This document shows, piece by piece, positions 8,469 through 17,235 of a DNA stretch of 40,865 nt. The notes beneath the pieces are model-generated. The model had not been told where the DNA came from. It ran no database searches and was given only the letters and a program-made list of their open reading frames with translations. This stretch comes from an uncultured Candidatus Pelagibacter sp. (GTDB taxonomy: Bacteria > Pseudomonadota > Alphaproteobacteria > Pelagibacterales > Pelagibacteraceae), in the NCBI GenBank assembly GCA_905612525.1, contig CAJQSG010000013.1, positions 1 through 40,865 of the forward strand. The letters run 5' to 3'. Numbering within the stretch: position 1 is the stretch's first letter; every line of letters begins with the position of its first letter. Position numbers and translations under genes: made by a program.

Positions 8469-10991
8469 TTAAAAAATACTACTTAGGCTGACCATTACTT
8501 CATCAATAGTATTTGGTTTCAATACATCTTGATTATTTAATTTAAAATCAATTTCAAAATCATTAATATTTTTACTAATCTTATACTCAGATCCTAGATT
8601 ATCTGATCCATTTATTTTAAAAGCATAGTTGGTTTTTTTGTTTGGTAAGTATCCAATCGTAATAATGATGTTATCTGTATGTCCAGTTCCAAGAGCTTGA
8701 TTACGCTCATATATTAAAAAGACACTCAAACTATTAGGTAAAATTATATCTATACCCATTTCACCATTTACATTATGTAAAGCCCCTGAGTATAATCTTT
8801 CCTGAAAATCTAAAGTATTATCTGAAACATAAGTATATTCAAAATTAGAGGAACGACTTAAATCAGCTATATATTCTAATTTACCGTGTTTTTTTATGTA
8901 GCATGTTTTAGCTAAGTCTAAGCAAAAAGTAGATTCATTTGGTAAATCATCCACCACTCCTATCGATGTTCTTAGTTTGGTTGTTATTATGTGCTGATTT
9001 TTAACTTTAATTGCACCAATACCAGACTCTGTATATCCATCTAATATTGTGTACCCAACATCAGCTTGAAAAGAGGGGATTAAAATAAAATTATTTTTTT
9101 TGATCTCATCTTTTGACTTAACTGCCCCATACACTTGTCTACCATTTCTACTGGCTTTTATATGTTTGCCGTCTAAAACAGTTAGAACATCATACTTTAA
9201 TTTACCAAAACCAATAACGATATCCTCAGATTTTGTGTCATTTTCAATTGGGGTAGTAGAATAATAACTAAGGTTGAATGTATCAGTATCTATATTACTT
9301 CCTCCCATTCCAACATCGACATTATTGTTACCGATTCTAAATGCCAATCCTTTTATTCCATTATTATCAGTAAATTTATCAGCTCCAAGTGTAATTGCTT
9401 CAGTTCCAATCTTTTTAAATGAAGAAATATTTGTGTCTCCTACTCTTCCAATTGCAATACTTCCTTCGCTCCAAAAAAAGATATCTTTTTTTTTATCTTC
9501 TGTCTTTTTTTTAACAGATGCTTTACGTGCGGTTATTTTTTCTGGAAGTTTATCAAACCAAGAATTTACCAGTGGGTTATCTGATTTAAAGACAGTGGTA
9601 AAATTATTATGGTTGTTACTACTTTTATTTCTTTTTTTATATTCACGATCAATAGTTATAGACTGACCACCTTCTACTTTTTTATTAACTGAAAGTATTC
9701 TGTCTGGAAGTTTTTTAACCCAGTAATTTAACAATGGGTTATCAAGTTGAGTGGCAGTATTAAAATTAAAATCAATATTAAGATTTGATAAATTTTGATT
9801 ATCTTTATTTCTTCTTATCCATTCTAAACGGTTTAAGGCACTTTTAGTTGAATGATCAATAGTTCTTTTAGCAATCATTATTTGCGCTTCTACAATTCCA
9901 GTTCTAATACTATTTTCTGTAACTGGAGGACATTTTCCTTCAATAATATTAAAAGGACAAACTAGATCATATTCTAAAACATCTTCATCTTCATCGTTCA
10001 TCGTGTACATTTTTAAACCATTGGTGCTAAATGTAAGTCCACTTGGCTGTGGAGCTCCACCACTTGCACTGTTGATGAATTCAACTGTACCATCTATTGT
10101 AAATGAAGAAGTGGAGAATGCCACATCAAGAGAAACTTGAGTTATATCTCTATCATAATTGTTTCCTCCGTGATCAACAACCCAAAATCTTTTTCCATCT
10201 GGACTAAAATCAAGTCCCTTGGCATTACCTACAGGAGTGCTAACTGAACCTGGATCCTGAAGTCTTATTCCAGCATCTGTAACAATTGATATAGTGCTTA
10301 AATCATATGCAATTGATAATTCGTATTCTAATAACCTTACATAATGATTTGAACCAGAGCCACCAAAAAGTACAAATAATTTTTTTCCATCATTACTAAA
10401 GTCAAAACCTCTCAATTTATTTTTAGTTGAAGGAACAACAACAGTTCCAGCATTACTCCCATCTTGCAGATCATCATCATCAAGATTTGAAGTTGCATGT
10501 ACAGCTGAACCTACAGGAAAATTACATGTTGAAATATCGTAAGGTGAAGTTAAATCAAATCTAAATACTCTATCAGCGTTTGCATTAGCTGAGCCTGAGT
10601 TACTTCTGGCTACAAACAATATCATTCCATCATGAGAAAATTTTAAATCATGCATCCAATTTGTAGGACCATATTCACTTGATCTATTACCCTCACCATT
10701 GTTCAAAATACATCTTTCACCATCACCTGCATAAGTTTTTGTAGAGACATCAAATGGTGTGCTTAAATTATATTCACTTACATGCGAAAAAACATCATCA
10801 GCTGAATTATCTGGTGATTGAGATAATATGAACATTTTTGTTCCAGCAGGATTAAAATGAACACCACTTGGATCATTATTAGTGCCATCGGTAACTGCTG
10901 CCTTCTGTACAAAAGTGTGCATAGCTCCAAATGAATTAGAGATCGGAAATATAAATAATAAAATTAAAATAAAGTTTTTTATAAATTTCAT
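8469..10991 (-). CDS. Autotransporter-like outer-membrane protein with beta-propeller-like passenger
   Basis: ORF track start is 11030, but MKFIKNFILILLFIFPISNSFG at 10991 is a better signal-peptide start and removes the overlap with the upstream gene. Propeller repeats FSxDGkkLFV; linker RLEWIRRNKDNQNLSNLN; C-terminus VSLSSIF. Confidence 0.8.
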   Translation of the reverse strand: MKFIKNFILILLFIFPISNSFGAMHTFVQKAAVTDGTNNDPSGVHFNPAGTKMFILSQSPDNSADDVFSHVSEYNLSTPFDVSTKTYAGDGERCILNNGEGNRSSEYGPTNWMHDLKFSHDGMILFVARSNSGSANANADRVFRFDLTSPYDISTCNFPVGSAVHATSNLDDDDLQDGSNAGTVVVPSTKNKLRGFDFSNDGKKLFVLFGGSGSNHYVRLLEYELSIAYDLSTISIVTDAGIRLQDPGSVSTPVGNAKGLDFSPDGKRFWVVDHGGNNYDRDITQVSLDVAFSTSSFTIDGTVEFINSASGGAPQPSGLTFSTNGLKMYTMNDEDEDVLEYDLVCPFNIIEGKCPPVTENSIRTGIVEAQIMIAKRTIDHSTKSALNRLEWIRRNKDNQNLSNLNIDFNFNTATQLDNPLLNYWVKKLPDRILSVNKKVEGGQSITIDREYKKRNKSSNNHNNFTTVFKSDNPLVNSWFDKLPEKITARKASVKKKTEDKKKDIFFWSEGSIAIGRVGDTNISSFKKIGTEAITLGADKFTDNNGIKGLAFRIGNNNVDVGMGGSNIDTDTFNLSYYSTTPIENDTKSEDIVIGFGKLKYDVLTVLDGKHIKASRNGRQVYGAVKSKDEIKKNNFILIPSFQADVGYTILDGYTESGIGAIKVKNQHIITTKLRTSIGVVDDLPNESTFCLDLAKTCYIKKHGKLEYIADLSRSSNFEYTYVSDNTLDFQERLYSGALHNVNGEMGIDIILPNSLSVFLIYERNQALGTGHTDNIIITIGYLPNKKTNYAFKINGSDNLGSEYKISKNINDFEIDFKLNNQDVLKPNTIDEVMVSLSSIF

Positions 10992-10995
10992 ATAA

Positions 10996-13203
10996 TTAAA
11001 ATGTTGAAGATAATTCAATACCTGCACCATAGTCAGGAATTTTACTATACATCGCGTAGTTAGATTTTACTTTTAAATCAAAATTATCATGCTTTTTTAA
11101 ATAACTAATTTCAGTATTATTATTTTTTAAAGGATCATAAATTACATTAAAATTAGTATTTTCATTTTTTTGTTTTCCAAATTTAAAAAGCAAACTATCT
11201 GTGTGTGCACTATTATCTAGGCTTTGAAATCGCTCATAATTTAATGCAAATGTTTGACCACTCTTTTTAAATAATTCAAAACCAATATTTCCTTTAATAT
11301 TATTGTATGAATATCTTTTAATGGTGTTTTGAACTGTGACATTATCACTGTGATTTTTATAACGATGATCAATATCAGGAGTAAAATCAACCATATACTC
11401 TAGAAATCCATTTCTGCTTATTCTGCTTCCATCCAAATACAAAGTGTTATCAAACTTAAAGCCAGCAGATGCATTTCCTGTTTTAAAAGTTAGTCTTTCA
11501 TGGGTCTCAATATTATTTGTGGCTGTTGTTCCAAAATCCGTATATTCAGATAATTCTGTGATCCCTAATTCTGTTTTAGCATAAGGAATTAAGTCAAATT
11601 TAGTATAATTTTCCTCTTCTTCGTAACTTAAAGATGTATAAATTTGTTTTCCATTTCTTTTACCAGTAATGGTTCCAGAGATCATTTGGTCTATCCTTAA
11701 AAAGCTTACTCCTAACAAAGCATTTAAATTTGATTTAGAATTAAAAGGTAATTGGCCGTACATATTAAAAGATAATGATTTCGAATTTAATTCCTCATTA
11801 GTTAAAGATTTTATATCAACATCATCATTACCGATTCTCATCGCAAATCCAAAAATATTATTATTTTTGGTTAATTTATCTGCACCAATTGTTATTCCTG
11901 TGGTTTTAATTTCTTTTGGTTTTAATGAAAAGGTATCACCCACTCTTCCAAATGAAATATCACCGTGTGACCAACTGGACCATTTTCTTTTATTCTCTGC
12001 TGGTTTTTCTGTTTTTAATGATGCTTGATTATATTTAATATTTTTAAAAGGAGACTTAAAAGATGATTGTAGTTTATTTGTTAAAGATGCTAAAATTGGA
12101 TTATTAATATTTAATTTTAAATTATGACTATTTAAATTTGTTTTATTTTCATTTCTACGCAACCATTCAAATCTTTTAAAAATTGTTGAGGTATTTTGAT
12201 GAATAACATTTTTAGCTATTTCTATTTGAGCACTTGCAACTGATGCTGTTTCACTTTCACATAATACAATTCCATAAGGACAGCTTAAATCATATTCAAA
12301 AACTTTATTTATATTACCAGTACTGTCATTTACAAAAGATACCTGATAAAATTTCATACCATCTTTAGAAAAATGCATACCTCCTGGTCCTCCATCACCT
12401 CCTGCTGCATCAAAAAAATTTGCTATACTACCGGCAAAAGTTGCTGTTGAAGTATCAAAACCAGTACTTAACTTATAAGCATAAATTTTATCGGAAGACG
12501 GATTACCTGATTTAGATTCTATTACATACATTCTTGTGCCATCGTCATCAAAATCTATATCCTGAATTTCCCTAGAACTTTCAGTTGCAAAAAAATTACC
12601 AAATGATGCAGAACCTGGAAGGTAAGGAGTGCTTAAATCATATTCTATAACTCCTACTGTGCCAACGGCATCAACTAAAAACATTTTTGTTCCATCATTA
12701 TTAAAACGCATGCCATGTGGTCTATGACTACTATTTGAACCTCCTTCTCCACCATAATCAGTACTCCAATTTATCCCGTCATCTGCATCCTGTGTAGCAT
12801 TAGATAAATCATATGGCGTTGGTAAACTGTGAACAGTCATTTGTCCTGTAAAACCTATTGCATATACTTTTGTACCGTCTCCATTAAATGTTAAATCTTC
12901 TATTTTACGAGCCGTCATAGCATCGGTACCAGTTACATTGAGGATAACTTCTGAGCTAGAATCTATTGATGATACATTAAATGGAATACTTAAATCATAC
13001 TGGTATAAATTTGATCCACTGTTAAACTTAGCAAAGTGAATTTTAGTTCCATCTGCACTAAGTGTTACTCCAATAGGTATAGTCATATTGGTGCCAGCTG
13101 AACGTACAAAGGTTGGTTTAACTGTCTCCGCTTGTGCTTGCATCAAAATAAAAAATGATGCCACAAGTAAACCAATGGCTAATTTTCTTAATAAAAATAA
13201 CAT
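10996..13203 (-). CDS. Autotransporter-like outer-membrane protein with beta-propeller-like passenger
   Basis: Signal peptide MLFLLRKLAIGLLVASFFILMQAQA; repeats FNNDGTKMFLVDA...EYDLSTPY; linker RFEWLRRNENKTNLN; C-terminus PDYGAGIELSSTF. Confidence 0.8.
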   Translation of the reverse strand: MLFLLRKLAIGLLVASFFILMQAQAETVKPTFVRSAGTNMTIPIGVTLSADGTKIHFAKFNSGSNLYQYDLSIPFNVSSIDSSSEVILNVTGTDAMTARKIEDLTFNGDGTKVYAIGFTGQMTVHSLPTPYDLSNATQDADDGINWSTDYGGEGGSNSSHRPHGMRFNNDGTKMFLVDAVGTVGVIEYDLSTPYLPGSASFGNFFATESSREIQDIDFDDDGTRMYVIESKSGNPSSDKIYAYKLSTGFDTSTATFAGSIANFFDAAGGDGGPGGMHFSKDGMKFYQVSFVNDSTGNINKVFEYDLSCPYGIVLCESETASVASAQIEIAKNVIHQNTSTIFKRFEWLRRNENKTNLNSHNLKLNINNPILASLTNKLQSSFKSPFKNIKYNQASLKTEKPAENKRKWSSWSHGDISFGRVGDTFSLKPKEIKTTGITIGADKLTKNNNIFGFAMRIGNDDVDIKSLTNEELNSKSLSFNMYGQLPFNSKSNLNALLGVSFLRIDQMISGTITGKRNGKQIYTSLSYEEEENYTKFDLIPYAKTELGITELSEYTDFGTTATNNIETHERLTFKTGNASAGFKFDNTLYLDGSRISRNGFLEYMVDFTPDIDHRYKNHSDNVTVQNTIKRYSYNNIKGNIGFELFKKSGQTFALNYERFQSLDNSAHTDSLLFKFGKQKNENTNFNVIYDPLKNNNTEISYLKKHDNFDLKVKSNYAMYSKIPDYGAGIELSSTF

Positions 13204-13419: not shown

Positions 13420-13776
13420 ATGGTATTTTTCTTAAGAAAACTTGCTAGATGTATTCACATCACTTTTTTTTTGATTATCTTTTTAAGTTCAAAAATAGTT
13501 TATTCAGCAAGCTTTACCTTTCCTTCATCTCTAACAACCAATACTTCAAATTTCGTTTTACTTTCTGAAACTGGAACCACTCCTTCTGTAGGTGGTTTTT
13601 CTACAGATGTACTTATTGCAATTACCGCAACAGCCGGTAATGTAAAAATAACAACAGTTACAGGCCTTGAACAAATTAATGGATTCTGTGGTTATACAGC
13701 TGATAATTCTAGCTCTGAACCAAGTAATTGCTCAGACAATAATAGATCAGAGATTGGTATCTTGCTGCCTCAATAA
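13420..13776 (+). pseudogene. Probable remnant of a secreted adhesin-like gene
   Basis: Signal peptide, then STDVLIAITATAGNVKITTVTGLEQINGFCGYTADNSSSEPSNCSDNNRSEIG, ending abruptly after 118 aa. The 5' end (MVFFLRKLA) resembles the divergent gene MLFLLRKLA. Another frame stays open past the stop to 13842. Confidence 0.4.
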
Positions 13777-13937: not shown

Positions 13938-14375
13938 CTAGCAACTACTACTGGAAACTGGTTTTTTTTTTGTTTGAGTTATTTTTATTGTACAGCTTGT
14001 GTCGCTAATTTTAGTTGCAATAATAGTAAGAGTGTCGGCGACTGTTGTTTTAAAAGTGTATGCTTGTCCATCTAAATCATCTACTCCATCAAATAAATTA
14101 GTAACTATATTTAATTGAGATGTGCTAATATAATATTCTCCATTATTAGATTTATATTCTTGCTCAGCTAAATAAATAGAGTTTAGTGTAATTTCAGCTT
14201 GTTTTTTTTCTGCTGAAGTTTTGTATCCGCTATAGGATACAACTCCTACTGCTGAAAGAATGCCAATAATGGCCACAACTACTAATAGTTCAATTAATGT
14301 AAAACCTTTTGAATTTTTTTTGTTATTAAAAAGTATTTGAGTTTTGATTAATTTAATGCACATTGCTGCTGACAC
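13938..14375 (-). CDS. Type IV pilin-like protein
   Basis: Class III signal KNSKG|FTLIELLVVVAIIGILSAVGVVSYSGY; C-terminal Cys pair (SDTSC...SSSC). The annotated start overlaps the upstream protease gene; the true start is uncertain. Confidence 0.85.
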   Translation of the reverse strand: MSAAMCIKLIKTQILFNNKKNSKGFTLIELLVVVAIIGILSAVGVVSYSGYKTSAEKKQAEITLNSIYLAEQEYKSNNGEYYISTSQLNIVTNLFDGVDDLDGQAYTFKTTVADTLTIIATKISDTSCTIKITQTKKKPVSSSSC

Positions 14376-15325
14376 ATACCATCTGGGTTTCGTTCTTTAC
14401 ATTTATTATAACACATAAAGTCAAATGCTAAACGTGGTTGACCAAAAACAGTTTTAACTGTTTTCATGGCTGCTATTTTTGTTTCAGCTGTCCAGCAACC
14501 CACATAAGCAGTTGCATTTTGTATTTTTTCTCCAAGTACTTCTGTCGAAACTTTCTTTGGCTCCTCTTCAGAATTTTTTATACTATTTGCTGAAGTAAAA
14601 TTTTTAAGAATAGATGATTTAATCCCAAAATTTGTATTTTCTGGAATAACTCCATAAGACTCCATTGCATCTTTAAAATCTAGTTTGGCTACCGCAACTC
14701 CAACTACATCACCACTAGTATTAACAATCGGACCCCCACTATTACCTGGCTGAATTGCTGCATCAATTTGAACTAATGCATAATTATCTTGTGAACCAGC
14801 AAGTGCACTAACAACTCCTTTTGTAACCTTTACAGAAGAGCTTACTGCTTTGCCAAAAGGATAACCTGCAACGTAAATATCATCTAATAATTTTGGATCT
14901 CTATTTGAAATATCAAATTTGTCTTTTGGTATTATATCTGTTTCAAGAAGTGCAAGATCATTTACTCTATCGTAAGCTAATATTTTAGCGGTTACTGTCT
15001 TACCAAAATATTTGACTTTGGTAATATTACAATAATTAACTACATGATGGTTAGTAATCATATGACCTTCATCAGATATAAAGAAAGCTGTACCTGATCC
15101 AGTAAAAATTTTATCATCTAAAACTTTATCGATTCTTTTCGTATTAGATATTTTATCAATACTCACTTTTGCTTTAACTTTTTTACATAAAAAAACAACA
15201 TTGTCAGAAGTAACTACAGTTTCTGCTATTTTTTTTGATTCATTACACGATTTTAGATCAGCCTTATAAACATGCTCAATCATACTTCCGTTTAAGAATA
15301 AAAGTAAAGCTGTAACGATTTCCAT
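14348..15325 (-). CDS. S1 trypsin-like serine protease with Cys-rich C-terminal tail
   Basis: GTAFFISDEGHMITNHHVV (His), YDRVNDLALLETD (Asp), QPGNSGGPIVNTSGDVVGVAVA (Ser). Tail GCWTAETK...CYNKCKERNPDGMCQQQCALN. Confidence 0.85.
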   Translation of the reverse strand: MEIVTALLLFLNGSMIEHVYKADLKSCNESKKIAETVVTSDNVVFLCKKVKAKVSIDKISNTKRIDKVLDDKIFTGSGTAFFISDEGHMITNHHVVNYCNITKVKYFGKTVTAKILAYDRVNDLALLETDIIPKDKFDISNRDPKLLDDIYVAGYPFGKAVSSSVKVTKGVVSALAGSQDNYALVQIDAAIQPGNSGGPIVNTSGDVVGVAVAKLDFKDAMESYGVIPENTNFGIKSSILKNFTSANSIKNSEEEPKKVSTEVLGEKIQNATAYVGCWTAETKIAAMKTVKTVFGQPRLAFDFMCYNKCKERNPDGMCQQQCALN

Positions 15326-15386
15326 AATGAATTTATTATACTATAAACTACTATTATTTATTCCCAAAATACGCTCATAGTGGGCA

Positions 15387-15428
15387 TTAATTAGCAACTA
15401 CAACCAAGAGTTCTATTAAAGTAAACCC
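15387..15428 (-). pseudogene. Relic of a prepilin N-terminus (GFTLIELLVVVAN-stop)
   Basis: Reverse strand GGG TTT ACT TTA ATA GAA CTC TTG GTT GTA GTT GCT AAT TAA = G F T L I E L L V V V A N *, without a start codon, in the gap between pilin and protease. Confidence 0.75.
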
Positions 15429-15438
15429 TTGGCTGTAG
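15398..15438 (-). terminator. Strong hairpin downstream of the pilin at 15460 (attenuator, stabiliser or terminator candidate)
   Basis: Minus-strand CTACAGCCAAGGGTT-TACTTTAATAG-AACTCTTGGTTGTAG: 15-bp stem with two G-U pairs and an 11-nt loop. No following T-run. Confidence 0.7.
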
Positions 15439-15459
15439 TACCTAATTTTAAAAAATTAT

Positions 15460-15912
15460 TTATTCAATTGTTACAACTGTTGTCATTAGATTGACGGCAG
15501 AACCAGTTCCTGTGCATGGATCTTTTATACAAGTTTTTACTGTAACGGTTTTGCCTACAGCTTTAATATGAACATAACCTAAAGCATGGGTAGTTCCTGC
15601 TTTAACCGATTCATTTGTAGTATCATGTGGATTTTTATCCGTCAGCACTAAAATCGCTCCAGCTGCAATTTTAGCTGCTGTTACAGGACACGTCTGAATA
15701 CCAGCATATGCCGTTTCTCCCAAACTACATTTTTGAGACTCTGCTGACATATATTTAACTGTTTGTGCGTGAATTGTTTTTGTCGAAGCAACTTTTGCAG
15801 CTCCTGTATATCCATTATAAGCAACAACACCTACTGCTGCTAAAATTCCTATAATTGCTACAACAACTAGCAATTCAATAAGTGTAAAACCTTTATTTTT
15901 AATTTTTTTCAT
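15460..15912 (-). CDS. pilA: Type IV pilin (probable major pilin)
   Basis: MKKIKNKG|FTLIELLVVVAIIGILAAVGVVAYNGYTGAAK; directly downstream of pilC; followed by a hairpin. Confidence 0.88.
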   Translation of the reverse strand: MKKIKNKGFTLIELLVVVAIIGILAAVGVVAYNGYTGAAKVASTKTIHAQTVKYMSAESQKCSLGETAYAGIQTCPVTAAKIAAGAILVLTDKNPHDTTNESVKAGTTHALGYVHIKAVGKTVTVKTCIKDPCTGTGSAVNLMTTVVTIE

Positions 15913-16002: not shown

Positions 16003-17235
16003 TCACCCAATTATCGCACCAACGTTAAATATAGGCGCATACATAGCTAACATTAGACCACCAATAGTGATCCCCATAAATACGATCATTATGGGCTCAA
16101 TTAAGCTTGCAAGGTTGGCAACAGCCACATCAAATTCTTCTTCGTAGTATATGGCAATAGAGCCAAACATTTCATCCAAGCTTCCCGTTTGTTCACCCAC
16201 TGCTATTAATTGACTAAAGGTTGTTGGGAATATTTTTTCTTTATTAAACAAATCCGTTAAACTTTCTCCTGAAAAAACTCCCTTCTTAATTCTTTCTAAT
16301 GCCTCAACAACAATTACATTGTCAGTTACTGATTTTGCAATATCTATACTCTCAATTAAATCAACCCCTGCTTGGTTAAGGTTTCCTAAAACTAAGGATA
16401 CTTTTGCTAAAATTGATTTTTGAATTAAATTTCCAAAAATAGGAAGCTTCATAATAACCCGGTGCCAATTTTTTCTCACTTCATAATTTTTTTTAATTAA
16501 AAATTTAAAACCAAATACAAAAGATATAATAAACATAAGTAAAAAAAATCCACCAGAAGAACGAACAAATTCACTCATAGACATAATAACAGCTGTTGGT
16601 GTTGGTAGATCATCTGCCATACCCATGCCTTCATACATATTTACAAAAGTTGGTACAACATTCATTAACATAAAAACAGTTACTAAAATTGCAACTGAAA
16701 ATAAAACACCTGGATAAAATAAAGCACTTTTAATTTGTGATTTAATTTTTTCTCTTTTCTCTAAATTGATTACTATTTTTTGTAAAAAAGTATCAAGTTT
16801 ACCACTAGCCTCCCCTGCTTTGATTAAATTAACAACAACTGTATCAAAAATTTTCGAGTGTTTTTCAAAACATTTTGACAATGCATTTCCGGATTCTAAA
16901 TCTTTTTTTATAGTTGAAATAACTTTTTTCATGGGAGGTCTTGATGTTTGACCTTCTAACATATCAAGAGTATTTAGAACAGGCAGTCCAGCTCTAAGCA
17001 TAGTAGCAAACTGTTTACAAAAAATTAAAATTTCTTGTGGCTTTATTCCAGTGCCAAAACTAAAAGAAGTTTTTTCTTTTTTAATAACAGCTTTCTTTTT
17101 TTTAGCTTCCTTTAATTTTGTGATAATAACTTTTTTGTCTTTAAGTTTATGAGCAGCCTCTGCATTATTTAGGGCTTCAATTTCTCCCTCAACATATTTA
17201 CCAAGAGCTATTCCTTTATATTCAAAATTTAACAT
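16003..17235 (-). CDS. pilC: Type IV pilus inner-membrane platform protein PilC/GspF/MshG-like
   Basis: FCKQFATMLRAGLPVLNTLDMLEGQ; duplicated T2SSF-type domains; C-terminal TM. Confidence 0.93.
   Translation of the reverse strand: MLNFEYKGIALGKYVEGEIEALNNAEAAHKLKDKKVIITKLKEAKKKKAVIKKEKTSFSFGTGIKPQEILIFCKQFATMLRAGLPVLNTLDMLEGQTSRPPMKKVISTIKKDLESGNALSKCFEKHSKIFDTVVVNLIKAGEASGKLDTFLQKIVINLEKREKIKSQIKSALFYPGVLFSVAILVTVFMLMNVVPTFVNMYEGMGMADDLPTPTAVIMSMSEFVRSSGGFFLLMFIISFVFGFKFLIKKNYEVRKNWHRVIMKLPIFGNLIQKSILAKVSLVLGNLNQAGVDLIESIDIAKSVTDNVIVVEALERIKKGVFSGESLTDLFNKEKIFPTTFSQLIAVGEQTGSLDEMFGSIAIYYEEEFDVAVANLASLIEPIMIVFMGITIGGLMLAMYAPIFNVGAIIG

Follow-up and report, generated by a model that had tools for sequence, protein, structure and literature searches.

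A conserved mRNA hairpin at the second pilin gene of SAR11 type IV pilus operons is retained in genomes that keep only a relic of the gene

SAR11 bacteria are among the most abundant marine cells, and we know of no role for their type IV pili. Silent pilin cassettes, such as pilS of Neisseria, carry partial pilin sequences beside the expressed ones. At the RNA level, hairpins without a terminator shield upstream cistrons from 3′-5′ decay in operons of Escherichia coli (PMC5927463), and in the cip-cel operon stem-loops set the subunit stoichiometry of the cellulosome through selective RNA processing and stabilisation (PMC4423207). The 2009 RNA screen in Candidatus Pelagibacter ubique was run on intergenic regions, conserved coding sequence being left out (PMC2704228), and its text nowhere mentions pili or pilins. 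A SAR11 study of 2025 mentions genes of the type IV pilus in the neighbourhood of adhesins and hypervariable regions, and the word pilin is absent from it (PMC12636525). A literature search of incomplete coverage returned no report of the pilin-2 hairpin element described here.

The window, i.e., the whole stretch of 40,865 nucleotides analysed, comes from an uncultured Candidatus Pelagibacter sp. whose close relatives include the SAR11 genomes Candidatus Pelagibacter sp. RIS_SAG_55, Pelagibacterales SAG-MED01 and AI_MB285. The features of its pilin locus are collected in Table 1. The original prediction, made from the window alone, had singled out a prepilin motif without a start codon on the reverse strand of a 134-bp gap between a pilin gene and a protease gene, and this was borne out. 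The gap spans positions 15326-15459, the relic, pilin 1 and the protease all lie on the minus strand, and the relic reads ..RYYSQ/GFTLIELLVVVAN-stop (the slash marks the cleavage site), with the motif starting at 15428 and the stop codon at 15389-15387. Pilin 1 and the present pilin 2 both have the N terminus of type IV pilins (PF07963, N_methyl). The relic does not qualify as such an N terminus: the motif is there, but a leader start and an intact open reading frame are missing, its open frame comprising 22 codons (13 of them after the cleavage site) with no ATG, GTG or TTG start.

Table 1. Coordinates of the pilin locus, the relic and the hairpin in the window
Feature	Position	Strand	Description
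PilC (T2SSF)	16003..17235	-	Upstream of the pilin array; Pfam
Pilin 1	15460..15912	-	150 aa; N_methyl motif, Pfam PF07963; upstream gene of the junction
Pilin-2 relic	15387..15446	-	Former codons MRRYSQ/GFTLIELLVVVA
Outer 6-bp extension, 5′ half AATTAG	15442..15447	-	Full-gap fold; pairs with 15389-15394; kept in G177
Hairpin 5′ arm	15423..15439	-	From the leader codons of the former pilin 2 (YSQ) and the codons that open the motif
Hairpin loop	15414..15422	-	RNA folding
Hairpin 3′ arm	15397..15413	-	Former ELLVVV codons
GTAGTTGCTA at the relic break	15392..15401	-	Proposed junction of a deletion; the 10-mer recurs at 13939-13948, at the 3′ end of the pilin 2 now present
Outer extension, 3′ half CTAATT	15389..15394	-	Full-gap fold
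Trypsin-like serine protease	14348..15325	-	Pfam Trypsin_2; between the relic and the pilin-2 body; probably acquired horizontally
Present pilin 2	13938..14363	-	Old body of pilin 2 behind a leader of donor type (..NNKKNSK/) and a recoded prepilin motif, as a fusion

Within its genome the relic DNA matched only its own site. DNA searches for the hairpin region, which covered about 400 genomes of the genus, recovered it at ~90% nucleotide identity in 11 relatives, each time directly behind pilin 1. Nine of these 11 are intact at the site (G130, G404, G346, G147, G116, G117, G284, G305 and G301), and these close SAR11 relatives encode there an orthologous 128-aa pilin that begins MRRYSQ/GFTLIELLVVVA(I/L)IGILSA... 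The relic state was found in four genomes, namely the window, RIS_SAG_55 (G177), SAG-MED01 (G226) and AI_MB285. In all four ATT replaces the former ATG start (15446-15444 in the window, where the frame ends with AAT TAA at 15392-15387), and just past VVVA the resemblance to the intact gene is lost. The match to the pilin motif had been judged far beyond chance, and it is indeed not a chance one, because the same DNA occupies the same place in 11 relatives and a fourth relic was found separately. The relic shares with the intact gene its leader, its motif DNA and its place behind PilC and pilin 1; what the site in the window holds is the 5′ end, left stranded, of a pilin-2 ortholog in a SAR11 type IV pilus operon, i.e., a decayed pilin copy as had been proposed. 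The further suggestion of a silent pilin cassette is not supported, since the relic has kept no pilin body.

Several other features of these loci were recorded. Two large autotransporter beta-domain proteins adjoin the pilin operon in the window (8469-13203), and in G175, G236 and G405 homologs travel together with the protease. A 118-aa open reading frame (13420-13776, plus strand) with no Pfam match faces the autotransporter gene at 10996-13203, and their N termini are alike (MVFFLRKLA.. and MLFLLRKLA..), so that it is perhaps an inverted fragment. Behind pilC, tandem arrays of ~4-11 pilin genes were seen at eight loci (L135-L140, L142 and L143), in which the N-terminal 30 residues are near-identical and the bodies are very different, which makes this a hypervariable SAR11 pilin locus. 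One pilin array, in G196, ends with an independent orphan prepilin motif, GFTLIELLVVVAK-stop (L144:9124, minus strand). It and the relic of the window break off at one and the same residue, but it forms no hairpin and was set aside as a separate scar.

The DNA of the relic had also been said to fold into a hairpin with a 15-bp stem containing two G-U pairs. The hairpin was confirmed and its size was not: RNA folding gave a continuous stem of 17 bp with three wobble pairs. The 49-nt hairpin has a predicted energy of -23.5 kcal/mol (z -6.8), and 0 of 200 shuffles were equally stable; the fold of the full 134-bp gap reached -37.9 (z -4.8). No Rfam family was matched at gathering score in the window. 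The arrangement of an intrinsic terminator, a GC-rich stem followed by a U-tract, was not found: there were no terminator-like sites on either strand at the hairpin, the U-tract is absent in the window, and in relatives the 9 nt past the stem contain a median of 3 T. As predicted, the structure has the form of a protective intercistronic mRNA hairpin, namely a stable, terminator-less stem placed where the upstream cistron ends. A second stem, between the relic and the protease, is weaker (-7.6 to -9.6 kcal/mol) and as variable in sequence as four-fold sites. A trans-acting antisense role, with the 5′ arm pairing to the motif of the pilin-1 mRNA, was rejected, as the duplex had no specificity (-10.1 kcal/mol in its own genome, -9.8 with the pilin 1 of other genomes).

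The hairpin is not a product of the decay of the gene, as it is already present, with similar energy, in intact pilin-2 genes and, in re-registered form, across most of the genus. Minimum free energies of relics and intact genes together ranged from -20.5 to -23.5 (z -4.8 to -6.8). In the intact genes the leader codons of pilin 2 form the 5′ arm and pair with the ELLVVV codons in the 3′ arm. When 100-nt windows were folded around every prepilin motif behind PilC in the genus, the median z was -3.79 at pilin 2 (n=70), against +0.19 at pilin 1 (n=79) and +0.59 at pilin 3 (n=18), and values below -2.5 were reached by 74% of the pilin-2 sites and by none (0%) of those at pilins 1 and 3. The duplex between leader and ELLVVV codons had a median energy of -23.2 at pilin 2, versus -6.6 and -7.4 at pilins 1 and 3. 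Furthermore, in a synonymous shuffle that kept the protein fixed and redrew the codons (200 draws per gene), p ≤ 0.01 was obtained for 50 of 68 pilin-2 genes, 47 of which beat all draws, compared with 2/76 for pilin 1 and 1/16 for pilin 3. The stem starts a median of 14 nt past the pilin-1 stop codon, and in 42 of 58 genomes the start codon of pilin 2 lies within it. Hence, the hairpin predates the decay of the gene and is a conserved mRNA element at the start of pilin 2 in most relatives.

A covariance model was tried on 33 further genomes, ~10 of which belonged to its training set; 26 of the 33 gave a strong match, in each case a single one that lay downstream of PilC. In a broader scan strong matches again came one per genome, except for two in G132 on different contigs of a fragmented assembly, and the weaker matches (~34-42 bits) included other pilin starts. 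The hairpin was absent at pilins 1 and 3, in the outgroup family f2, in the sub-clade of G175, G236, G405, AG-461-E04, AG-903-M21 and AG-895-E15, in G067, G105 and G205, and in G174, G010 and G206; it is therefore not essential. Two variants were noted. A different GC-rich hairpin occupies the same pilin-2 leader in G143 (L179) and G026 (L193; AAAAGCCCGGG...CCCGGGCTTTT in G026), which suggests that one stem was replaced by another. In the sub-clade of G066, G064, G029, G135 and G080 (L065, L174, L178, L180 and L182) there is no leader stem, and the start of the motif can pair with the IIGA/IIGT codons (GAGGGTT..AGCCCTC).

For the analysis of covariation, 42 genes with a leader ending in KSS or a similar peptide were used; they were picked by peptide and not by pairing. 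In this KSS-leader alignment a single register was 95% paired, while all other registers reached 21-52%. Over the 42 genes, 94.1% of the cells were paired, and 68 changes affected both sides of a pair, compared with a mean of 19.8 in shuffled alignments (0 of 500 as many) and 2-13 in slid registers. The covariation score was 0.335, as opposed to 0.177 for shuffled and 0.05-0.13 for slid alignments. Compensatory changes thus exceeded both controls, as expected of a conserved structured RNA in the KSS-leader clade. At a silent position (columns 9-48) the pairs AU, CG, UA, UG, GC and GU were all seen. On the sense strand, G-U cells outnumbered A-C cells by 16:1 at silent positions, by 40:1 when position 30 was included and by 94:4 overall, and therefore the selected molecule is the sense mRNA and not the DNA. 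The clade of the window keeps the structure with the same 3′ arm and a different 5′ arm, the leader being paired in a shifted register; it has too few changes for a test of its own.

The four relic genomes allow the fate of the stem to be followed after the loss of the gene. From the pilin-1 stop codon to the end of the stem, 5 of 63 sites were variable, compared with 24% of the four-fold sites (65 of 270, taken from pilC and the protease gene; p 0.003), and just past the stem 28% of the sites were variable. For the stem alone the difference was mildly significant (3/34 versus 20/71 in the DNA after the stem, p 0.026), both comparisons resting on four genomes and few sites. Stem energies remained between -21.5 and -23.5, the value of -21.5 kcal/mol belonging to the G177 and G226 relics, which have one mispair. 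In AI_MB285 the I-E of the motif is gone (ATAGAA to AAAAAA) and the stem is still fully paired. Lack of conservation in relatives had been named as an outcome that would speak against the original prediction; in the gap as compared here, both the motif and the stem are retained. As the hairpin has outlasted the gutted gene, these data suggest that the RNA structure itself matters.

The proposal that the site is a scar of pilin recombination was upheld. The old pilin-2 body now lies behind the protease, where it is 77-80% identical to that of G404, G130 and G346, and it is preceded by another leader and by recoded motif DNA. Within the clade with at least 80% PilC identity, the protease is present at the locus in the four relic genomes only. 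In SAG-MED28 the protease is 86% identical to that of the window while PilC is 71% identical, and the gene order is pilin 2, protease and then a pilin with the homologous leader NKKSSK/. On these grounds, a protease-leader segment of this type would have entered the ancestor of the relic clade, and the arrangement is probably traceable to a SAG-MED28-like lineage. The ancestor would have gained the protease and the leader of another pilin by recombination, with one crossover in the conserved prepilin motif. A simple insertion of the protease inside pilin 2 had been considered; this was revised, since the break of the relic matches the 3′ end of pilin 2. The break reads GTAGTTGCTA, followed by GTTA in AI_MB285, and matches the 3′ end and stop codon of pilin 2 (AGTAGTTGCTAG TTA) over 10-11 nt. 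A deletion between short repeats, the two copies of GTAGTTGCTA, probably removed the interior of the original pilin 2, as judged from this match of 10-11 nt.

The region is still subject to exchange. The window and G177 (L147) are 99-100% identical over most of pilC; in the interval 15100-15850 of the window, the pilin-1 body is 56-70% identical, and the relic gap and the 5′ end of the protease gene differ by ~10%, after which the sequences match again. By sequence comparison, this is the pattern of a recent swap of pilin-1 alleles, one edge of which falls at the prepilin motif. In AG-901-J13 (L155:77-1117, near a contig end) a prepilin N terminus, MITNEGFTLIELLVVVAIIGILAAVG, is in frame with a trypsin-like protease; this fusion may be genuine or may have arisen as a chimera during single-cell amplification.

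The explanation that best joins these observations, and to which we give about an even chance, is that the terminator-less intercistronic hairpin sets the ratio of pilin 1 to the downstream products by protecting or processing the pilin-1 mRNA. This role is proposed because a terminator-less stem ~14 nt past the stop codon resembles the hairpins of E. coli and of the cellulosome. The hairpin would block 3′-5′ exonucleases and/or serve, within the polycistronic mRNA, as a boundary for processing; the pilin-1 message would thereby outlive the downstream part. In intact genes it would also cover the start of pilin 2 and may lower its translation, and both roles may act. The idea of a dead copy turned into a 3′ attenuator or stabiliser thus survives in its second half, as the leading interpretation; its first half fails, as the hairpin was already there in intact genes. 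A true intrinsic terminator or attenuator after pilin 1 would be in keeping with a stable stem directly past a stop codon, but the missing U-tract in the window, the scarcity of T past the stem in relatives and a co-directional pilin that follows at once make it very improbable. The stem might also act on translation, by burying the start and early codons of pilin 2, which would be made weakly or only once the stem is opened by ribosomes that finish pilin 1; on this account the hairpin of the relic genomes would be a leftover. The position of the pilin-2 start codon, so often inside a stem placed just past the pilin-1 stop, fits this account, as does the absence of the hairpin in a sub-clade where pilins 1 and 2 overlap or nearly touch. 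Against it, the four relics keep the block better than neutral sites with neither start nor open frame, and AI_MB285 has lost the motif and kept the pairing. The retention of the stem after the loss of start and open frame favours an RNA role in the pilin-1 transcript over control of pilin-2 translation alone, which we regard as possible, though not as what we would expect.

Protection or processing of the pilin-1 message must also be weighed against the absence of any function in the lineage of the window, where the fragment and its old hairpin would simply be decaying, irrespective of any role in intact relatives. The lost start, the broken frame, the decayed motif of AI_MB285 and the mispair of G177 and G226 would be expected of such a neutral relic; the low variability of the block relative to four-fold sites and to the DNA just downstream, and the stem energies, which hold, are at odds with it, and we consider it unlikely. 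A DNA-level element, a cruciform or DNA hairpin used in pilin gene recombination or cassette exchange, could be invoked from the hypervariability of the pilin arrays and from the recent exchange of the pilin-1 body and the relic among genomes that are nearly identical, an exchange that has one edge at the prepilin motif. Such an element would give equal numbers of G-U and A-C cells at silent sites, where the former prevail 16 to 1, and the hairpin is specific to pilin 2, whereas exchange and arrays involve other pilins; we give this explanation hardly any credence. Overall, the original observation is confirmed and its interpretation is partly supported. A bolder reading, which we put forward as speculation and hold to be distinctly unlikely, is a conserved SAR11 cis-regulatory RNA in which the prepilin leader codons are selected to be complementary to the invariant signal codons. 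If this were true, a protein-targeting sequence would double as a structured RNA, and it would act as a tunable switch between pilin 1 and pilin 2, e.g., a ribosome-coupled or condition-responsive one, which would run gene-less in the relics. In a streamlined genome, a hairpin that covaries in silent sites and is kept after gene loss points to a control of pilin stoichiometry that is under selection.

With regard to known systems, Neisseria pilS likewise places a partial copy next to expressed pilins, with recombination at conserved N-terminal coding DNA, but the SAR11 relic has no variable body to donate, and there is no evidence of gene conversion from it. The papBA/papA system of E. coli P pili is also a pilus operon in which RNA hairpins set the product ratio (PMC5927463). 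There, however, papA is shielded, once RNase E has cleaved, by an intercistronic hairpin on its 5′ side and by a 3′ terminator (PMC5927463), the P pilus belongs to the chaperone-usher and not to the type IV class, and its hairpins have no sequence relation to that of SAR11. The cip-cel stem-loops are similarly located downstream of a cistron in a multi-subunit operon, mostly without U runs, but they are intergenic, come from Clostridium and are experimentally based, whereas the SAR11 hairpin is embedded in coding sequence and computed (PMC4423207). Similar in form are the protective intercistronic hairpins of malEFG, menBCE and puf, which are stable, lie just past the upstream cistron within an operon, lack a U-tract and are conserved (PMC5927463); in SAR11, unlike in these, the two arms fall within the coding part of the downstream gene, in its prepilin leader and signal, and the effect on decay is a prediction. 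The candidate structured RNAs of Ca. Pelagibacter ubique are, like the present element, conserved covarying hairpins from SAR11 comparative genomics (PMC2704228), and RNA screens limited to intergenic DNA miss coding-embedded elements in streamlined genomes. Intercistronic regulatory hairpins are already known, and it is the coding-embedded pairing of leader with signal in SAR11, together with its survival as a gene-less relic, that appear to be new.
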